Source: Arthrobacter sp. JZ12
GTDB taxonomy: Bacteria; Actinomycetota; Actinomycetes; Actinomycetales; Micrococcaceae
Length of the DNA stretch: 64,000 bases
Reading direction: 5' to 3'
Assembly (NCBI RefSeq): GCF_035189165.1
Contig: NZ_CP045246.1
Location: 1,736,001-1,800,000, forward strand
This document shows, piece after piece, positions 5,821-5,909 of this stretch. The notes beneath the pieces are model-generated. The model was not told where the DNA came from. It did no database searches and saw only the letters and a program-made list of their open reading frames with translations. The position numbers were made by a program, and so were the translations under genes. Numbering within the stretch: the stretch's first letter is position 1; the number at the start of each line of letters is the position of its first letter.

Positions 5821-5871
5821 CACACAAAAGCCCCTCGACATGGGAGGGGCGGCCGCGCGAAATCGCGCGGC
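5821..5871 (-). terminator. leuS leader: hairpin at leader stop codon plus intrinsic terminator
   Basis: Reading the minus strand, an 8-bp perfect hairpin (arms 5871-5864 and 5859-5852, loop ATTT) begins with the last base of the leader-peptide stop codon. It is followed at once by a second hairpin, GCCCCTC / GAGGGGC (5850-5844 and 5836-5830, 7-nt loop). A TTTTGTGTG tract (5829-5821) ends it. That is an intrinsic terminator about 95 nt before the leuS start. The arrangement is what transcription attenuation needs; I could not assign one unambiguous antiterminator helix by eye. Confidence 0.75.
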
Positions 5872-5897
5872 TAGGTAAGGAGCAGTTGCGCGCACAT
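5871..5897 (-). CDS. Leucine leader peptide of leuS (8 residues, MCAQLLLT)
   Basis: A nine-codon reading frame upstream of leuS: ATG TGC GCG CAA CTG CTC, then CTT ACC TAG. Residues 5-7 are three consecutive leucines using three different Leu codons. The stop codon is fused to an 8-bp hairpin, and a terminator follows. A TAAGGT box exactly 6 nt before the ATG suggests that transcription starts at this codon, making the leader peptide leaderless. Ribosome stalling at the Leu codons when charged tRNA-Leu is scarce would be the regulatory signal. Too short for similarity evidence; the call rests on arrangement. Confidence 0.72.
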   Translation of the reverse strand: MCAQLLLT

Positions 5898-5903
5898 GCT
5901 CTT

Positions 5904-5909
5904 ACCTTA
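5904..5909 (-). promoter_or_regulatory. Candidate -10 box for the leuS leader transcript
   Basis: TAAGGT on the minus strand, separated by AAGAGC from the leader-peptide ATG at 5897. This matches the TANNNT-N6-start pattern of leaderless actinobacterial mRNAs. No good -35 hexamer is visible at the expected spacing. Confidence 0.45.

Follow-up and report, generated by a model that had tools for sequence, protein, structure and literature searches.

A predicted leaderless leucine attenuator upstream of leuS in Arthrobacter and the fixed distance between its last leucine codon and its first hairpin

Results

The leader region of leuS

The leucyl-tRNA synthetase gene leuS of Arthrobacter sp. JZ12 is preceded by a very short leucine-rich open reading frame (ORF), a hairpin (P1) and an intrinsic terminator hairpin (T), which, judging from the sequence and its relatives, quite probably make up a ribosome-mediated attenuator by which the supply of charged tRNA-Leu controls leuS transcription. 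What is new here is a strict ruler of 5 nt between the last sensor codon and P1, which was not found stated in the largely open-access literature searched. The features are listed in Table 1 in coordinates of the window, by which we mean the whole stretch of 64,000 nucleotides analysed (contig NZ_CP045246.1, positions 1,736,001 to 1,800,000).

Table 1. Coordinates of the predicted leuS leader and its components in the window.
Feature	Position	Strand	Basis or remark
-10-like box TAAGGT	5904..5909	-	sequence read; TANNNT counterpart in relatives
Spacer AAGAGC, 6 nt	5903-5898	-	between TAAGGT box and ATG
Predicted leaderless leader ORF M-C-A-Q-L-L-L-T-stop (ATG TGC GCG CAA CTG CTC CTT ACC TAG)	5871..5897	-	counterpart in 67/85 genomes
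Three putative sensor codons CTG CTC CTT	5877..5885	-	last one, CTT (5879-5877), most conserved
Hairpin P1, GCCGCGCG/ATTT/CGCGCGGC, 8 pairs, 4-nt loop	5852..5871	-	fold, covariation and spacing
Intrinsic terminator hairpin T, GCCCCTC/CCATGTC/GAGGGGC, 7 pairs	5830..5850	-	1 nt after P1; terminator scan and fold
Terminator tail TTTTGTGTG	5821..5829	-	similar in relatives
leuS, leucyl-tRNA synthetase, predicted controlled gene	3235..5727	-	TIGR00396, 970.8 bits; N-terminus similar in relatives

The first-pass annotation had described a TAAGGT box followed after 6 nt by an eight-codon ORF (MCAQLLLT) with consecutive CTG, CTC and CTT codons, and this was confirmed in the sequence; the hairpin that begins in the stop codon of this ORF and the terminator between it and leuS, also described there, were confirmed by folds, by a terminator scan and by the TIGR00396 assignment. 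The first base of P1 is the G of the TAG stop codon, and 5 nt lie between the last Leu codon and P1. Both hairpins are present in the minimum-energy fold of the 77-nt leader (z -3.87 against 200 shuffles), and T is the sole terminator within 5700-6150 according to a terminator scan in which shuffled sequences gave 0.4 on average. The start of leuS is the ATG at 5727, with an in-frame GTG at 5733 as a possible alternative; its product is 98 and 96% identical over 245 residues to those of the closest named leuS loci, both from Arthrobacter. A sigma-70 scan gave no passing promoter upstream of leuS, and a -35 box was not evident. Neither a T-box nor any other Rfam family matched the leuS region of the window at gathering score, and ten loci (the own locus and nine others) gave no Rfam match up to E = 1. 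The tail of the terminator is conserved past its U-tract, mostly as TTTTGTGTGTCCGG, with the variants GTATGT and GCATGT.

Conservation and distribution of the leader

By the measure of sequence conservation, the arrangement is real and far beyond chance. leuS was detected in 87 of 117 genomes, the own genome included, and the upstream region was examined in 85 of them, after G013 (contig end, not fetched) and L094 (too short) had been dropped. A leaderless-looking leucine ORF followed by P1 and T was present before leuS in 67 of the 85 (own included; 64 found by script, and L017, L021 and L087 by eye), namely in 37 of 37 genomes of the window's genus (own included), 19 of 32 from other genera of the family and 11 of 16 from the rest of the order. 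The 67 include three incomplete elements, with T hidden by N in L029, P1 displaced in L017 and P1 unclear in L059; L017 and L087 contain a single Leu codon each, and the 5-nt spacing is not kept in L017. In most elements of the window's family the leader peptide has 6-8 codons. The leader was absent from 18 of the 85 genomes examined; the 13 of these that belong to other genera of the family are L056, L061, L065-L073, L075 and L076.

An alignment of leuS upstream regions from relatives, proposed in the first-pass annotation as a check, was carried out and returned conserved Leu codons and a covarying P1. It holds 38 of the 62 prepared sequences, mostly those with a short P1 loop. Changes on both sides were seen in 7 of the 10 P1 pairs, the whole structure contained 30 doubly changed cells (28 of them in P1) versus 7.4 in shuffles, and 95.8% of the alignment cells were paired versus 38-55% when the alignment was slid.

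Of 394 genomes sampled from the class, 136 were matched by a covariance model of the window's family (R1; E <= 0.01, strict filters), as were 47 of 80 named leuS loci, among them loci of Arthrobacter, Pseudarthrobacter, Paenarthrobacter, Nocardioides, Marmoricola, Actinomadura and Microlunatus. The matches fetched stand before leuS in 57 of 70 cases, a proportion that is not a rate, since second matches and new families were chosen on purpose. R1 matched one place only in the own genome; as the similarly built leader of the own ilvB gene escapes R1 (see below), this single match does not show that leuS is the sole case. The same leader was also seen in L189 (NZ_JADHDY010000020.1, titled Sporosarcina beigongshangi) before an Arthrobacter-like leuS that is 83% identical to that of the window, and this assembly is perhaps contaminated or mislabelled.

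Box spacing and a probable leaderless start

A TANNNT box precedes the start codon by 6 nt in 59 and by 7 nt in 7 of 66 genomes (own included), and at 4, 5, 8 or 9 nt in none. Since 63 of the 66 had been selected by requiring a box at 5-7 nt, the evidence lies in the narrow peak at 6 nt and not in the presence of the box. As a control, 1490 other ATG/GTG triplets from the same regions gave 12 boxes over six spacings together. Transcription of leuS probably begins at the A of the leader ATG (5897): the peak at 6 nt agrees with transcription beginning at the start codon itself, as RNA-seq was reported to show for LeuL2 of S. lividans (PMC8079986). A Leu leader peptide, probably leaderless, with a terminator before leuS, as originally annotated, has good support from its conservation, from covariation, from the spacing of the box and from its RNA-seq-mapped Streptomyces counterpart.

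A 5-nt ruler between the sensor codon and P1

In 108 of 125 elements, the distance from the last sensor codon to P1 is exactly 5 nt. The set comprises 62 leuS genomes and 63 further R1 matches, whose sequences are related and are not independent events. Left out of this set were L029, L017, L040, L048 and L059, in which the helix finder was unsuccessful (L040 and L048 nevertheless show the 5-nt spacing on inspection by eye), the duplicates L095-L097, and L131, L149, L151 and L161, to which no start codon was assigned. The reading frame permits a 5-nt spacing in 115 of the 125 elements, with a third expected, and unconstrained minimum-energy folds reproduced the spacing in 106 of 122 (L051, L089 and L130 being out). 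The stop codon does not set this distance, as its position relative to P1 varies: its last base is the first base of P1 in 67 of the 125 elements, and it begins 7 nt after the first base of P1 in 39.

The codon that ends 5 nt before P1 encodes Leu in 105 of 106 in-frame leuS-type elements and is CTT in 99 of them. The codon before it is a Leu codon in 100 of 106 elements and CTT in 19; for the codon before that, the values are 90 and 6 of 105. (One match at a contig end, L138, was counted as leuS-type in these tallies.) CTT makes up 44 of the 332 Leu codons of six genes in the window. The last Leu codon, ending in U, therefore seems to be the one that matters most in these sequences.

With the sensor codon in the A site, the first base of P1 lies at +12, counting from the first base of the P-site codon. 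It has been determined experimentally that the bacterial mRNA channel holds 11 nt from the first P-site base, and that stem-loops placed 11 or 12 nt downstream hinder the binding of tRNA to the A site, a hindrance relieved at 13 nt; such stem-loops also slow translocation, three pairs being unwound per step (PMC7282821, PMC8861025). These data come from two frameshifting stem-loops and not from P1, and stem length and loop mattered (PMC8861025). A spacing of 5 nt places P1 at the mRNA entrance of the ribosome while the last sensor codon, nearly always CTT, is being read. When everything up to the tunnel entrance was masked at each ribosome position, the mean pairing of P1 over 123 elements (L057 and L145 left out of the 125 in the fold tests) was 0.95 while the sensor codon occupied the A site and fell to 0.59 after one further codon and to 0.12 after two; the corresponding values for the window element were 1.00, 0.62 and 0.04. 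In these folds, P1 thus stays intact until the sensor codon is decoded and is unzipped by the two further steps, so that it would report the decoding of the last Leu codon.

P1 and the terminator lie side by side

P1 and T coexist in the unconstrained folds of 122 of 125 elements, and in all 122 their bases are 0-3 nt apart (0 nt in 35 elements, 1 in 67, 2 in 19 and 3 in one), with P1 loops of 3 to 47 nt. An earlier P1 finder had sought only helices ending near T, which partly built in the gaps, and the gap figures relied on here are those of the unconstrained folds. Drawn at full length, P1 overlaps T by 1-2 nt in 16 elements.

For a sequestration test, transcripts were cut before the 3' arm of T and the pairing of its 5' arm was scored. 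With the sensor codon in the A site, sequestration of this arm exceeded one half in none of 123 elements (mean 0.13); its average pairing was 0.37 with the ribosome at the stop codon, and it was more than half sequestered in 10 of 123 elements when no ribosome was present. The same test applied to the thr, leu, trp and his attenuators of E. coli gave 0.81-1.00 in the stalled state and 0.25-0.59 at the stop codon. The overlap that defines attenuators of the trp type is absent from the actinobacterial elements in these computed folds. A first hairpin that competes with the terminator for bases in the textbook manner, as one might read the initial annotation, was accordingly not borne out here, whereas all four E. 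coli controls behaved in that way. As P1 does not take the 5' arm of T, the step that couples the two hairpins is left without support from base pairing. With the full terminator present, the probability of T was independent of P1, a test that is uninformative because the E. coli controls behave alike.

Two other pairings were considered and rejected. The Leu-codon region could pair with the 3' arm of T as an antiterminator in the window; this possibility is lost in L080, where the arm has changed to GGTCC (by eye). An extended terminator formed by the freed 3' arm of P1 and the U-tract was also tried: masking P1 raised the pairing of the U-tract from 0.13 to 0.34, but it reached 0.31 with shuffled arms, and the native arm exceeded the shuffled ones in only 61 of 123 elements.

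Leaders of the same build before cimA and ilvB

According to translations judged by eye, 12 of the 13 fetched R1 matches that do not stand before leuS precede cimA-like (9) or ilvB-like (3) genes, the thirteenth being L138; three of the 12 genes were checked by NCBIfam, as fragments and with scores under the curated cut-offs. An Ile or Val codon ends 5 nt before P1 in 9 of the 9 cimA- and ilvB-like leaders measured (ATT in 6, GTT in 2, ATC in one). Leaders with Ile codons, the 5-nt ruler, P1 and a terminator stand before cimA-like genes at L139, L142, L152, L154, L156, L157 and L160, and also at L151 and L161, all in other actinobacteria. No cimA match was found in the own genome. No report of an isoleucine leader of cimA was seen among the papers listed in a search of largely open-access literature, as judged from titles and the openings of abstracts.

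Among 31 ilvB loci, 30 could be searched for an ORF rich in branched-chain amino acids together with an A/T box and hairpins, and 26 gave one. An Ile, Leu or Val codon ends exactly 5 nt before P1 in 24 of these 26 leaders; this codon is the last of its kind in 17 (CTT 12, CTC 3, GTT 2), and one more follows in 7. The own-genome ilvB leader (L165) encodes MQLVSVVLVTKRVA, has a box AAAACT 6 nt before its ATG, and continues with GTT, 5 nt, P1 and a terminator that follows without a gap.

Discussion

Proposed mechanism

The regulation that we propose would run as follows. When Leu-tRNA is sufficient, the ribosome would pass CTT and open P1, upon which T would form and transcription would stop. When Leu-tRNA is short, the ribosome would wait at CTT or at an earlier Leu codon and P1 would remain closed; T would then fail, and RNA polymerase would read through into leuS. 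The first half of this scheme, in which P1 stays closed until CTT is decoded, is derived from the geometry, and the sign of the switch is taken from physiology and from the ilvB leaders of Corynebacterium. The ilvB leader of C. ulcerans, placed in B. subtilis, gave high reporter activity in minimal and low activity in rich medium (PMC10272879), and mutations in the terminator raised ilvBNC expression seven- to eight-fold in C. glutamicum (PMC11857589). There is also counter-evidence: replacing candidate sensor codons of ilvB in S. coelicolor reportedly had no effect (PMC1262725), and regulation by the C. ulcerans ilvB leader survived a single Val-to-Glu change (PMC10272879).

The least certain step is how a closed P1 would disable T, for which steric exclusion is favoured. 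The base of T must form deep in the RNA exit channel of the polymerase, and its 5' flank has to leave alongside; where this flank is a helix that starts 0-3 nt away, there may perhaps be no room for T in the channel. Steric exclusion predicts that P1 and T abut, and an abutment of 0-3 nt is what was observed. We tentatively suggest, with rather less than even confidence, that leuS, cimA and ilvB of actinobacteria are controlled by a separate common class of attenuator, one that would involve no choice between overlapping hairpins. A hairpin placed one mRNA-tunnel length past the last sensor codon would be unzipped only upon decoding and, as long as it is closed, would sterically bar the abutting terminator; it may in addition block the entry of tRNA and so set the threshold of the sensor.

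Alternative explanations

Classical attenuation of the trp type, in which stalling of the ribosome allows the 5' arm of T to be captured by an antiterminator, shares with the leuS leader its general logic, a leader ORF and a terminator. The attenuators of Streptomyces leuS were in fact called classical by earlier authors, who named antiterminator and terminator hairpins (PMC1262725), a boundary GCC is shared by the two hairpins of Corynebacterium ilvB (PMC11857589), and the 16 elements with a 1-2 nt overlap also point this way. The sequestration test, which separates all 123 elements from the E. coli attenuators, and the coexistence of abutting P1 and T in nearly all unconstrained folds argue against it, and we consider it quite unlikely. 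A reading of opposite sign takes P1 and T as a tandem-hairpin terminator that is weakened when the ribosome opens P1, such that a good supply of Leu would turn leuS on. That the two hairpins abut and fold together agrees with it, and hairpin clusters have been proposed as terminators (PMC8355165). Its sign, however, would be wrong for the similarly built leaders of the biosynthetic genes cimA and ilvB, and a Corynebacterium ilvB leader gave high expression in minimal medium and low expression in rich medium (PMC10272879), which makes this reading very unlikely.

It is also conceivable, if unlikely as the main mode of action, that P1 works chiefly on the ribosome: sitting at +12, it would hinder the entry of tRNA at CTT and create a hypersensitive sensor, and T would be controlled through the timing of transcription and translation. 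The spacing coincides with the 11 (and 12) nt at which stem-loops hindered A-site binding before relief at 13 (PMC7282821, PMC8861025), and CTT is strongly preferred at the last codon only, not at the two codons before it. The supporting experiments, however, used two other stem-loops whose length and loop mattered (PMC8861025), and the tight abutment of P1 and T is not explained by such an action alone; it may be compatible with the favoured steric model, both operating together. That the terminator is simply partial and constitutive, the ORF fortuitous and the region unregulated is highly improbable in view of the conserved sensor codons and frame, the ruler, the covariation and the R1 matches across the class.

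Comparison with known attenuators

A study of 2005 predicted leuS attenuators in S. avermitilis and S. coelicolor (PMC1262725), and RNA-seq led in 2021 to the description of a leaderless peptide LeuL2, MRAVRLLLSEPR, with a hairpin and a U-stretch before leuS of S. lividans (PMC8079986). By its predicted features, the window element belongs with the leaderless Leu attenuators described before leuS of Streptomyces. The first-pass annotation had left open whether such control had been described in this genus; in another genus it had been. Both share the gene, the Leu run and the hairpin with a U-stretch; the start is leaderless by RNA-seq there and predicted to be so from the box spacing here. 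One R1 match, L135, encodes exactly the LeuL2 peptide of S. lividans. Its ORF has 12 codons and a stop inside P1, whereas that of the window has 8 and a stop on P1. The ruler and the lack of base overlap were not found in the passages of text on the Streptomyces leuS attenuators that were compared.

The ilvBNC leader and the ilvB-II motif of Corynebacterium resemble the window element in that the leader starts one nucleotide from the transcription start site, with CUU and GUA as control codons, and in that the first hairpin meets the terminator at its base, switching there being of low energy (PMC11857589, PMC10272879). They differ in the gene, in the boundary GCC common to antiterminator and terminator and in a third hairpin that has been described, whereas no shared pairs were found in the elements studied here. 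The uORF attenuator of M. tuberculosis ilvB1 likewise combines a uORF containing codons for branched-chain amino acids, a terminator and a logic of masking by the ribosome; it is described, however, as a mutually exclusive terminator and antiterminator in a leader of 166 nt (PMC13236596).

The thr, leu, trp and his attenuators of E. coli also consist of a leader ORF with sensor codons and a terminator, but in the fold test their antiterminator takes the 5' arm of the terminator. Their leaders have a Shine-Dalgarno sequence, and the enterobacterial leu leader uses rare Leu codons. The antiterminator begins 6 (thr), 14 (leu and trp) and 8 nt (his) after the last sensor codon, where the mask imposes a minimum of 5, so the spacing of thr is close to the 5-nt ruler.

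Significance

These results suggest that very short leader peptides govern leuS in Arthrobacter and in much of the class. The ruler links the geometry of the ribosomal tunnel with gene control in a directly testable way, and it provides a sharp criterion by which leaders of this type can be recognized before other genes. The geometry of the window element may define a variant of attenuator, and the missing base overlap of P1 and T raises the general question of how a hairpin can disable a neighbouring terminator.

Other observations in the window

A copy of the motif GCGCAA(A)CTGCTCC, noted in the first-pass annotation at 5801-5814, is indeed present. The own genome contains 27 matches to GCGCAACTGCTCC with at most one mismatch versus 21 to the reversed pattern, and the motif was seen at the corresponding place in none of L010-L015, so that the repeat is probably due to chance. 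Elsewhere in the window, a Guanidine-III riboswitch (53147-53209, minus strand, 63.1 bits) lies at the start of an ORF at 52818-53207 on the same strand, which by eye resembles a small-multidrug-resistance gene.
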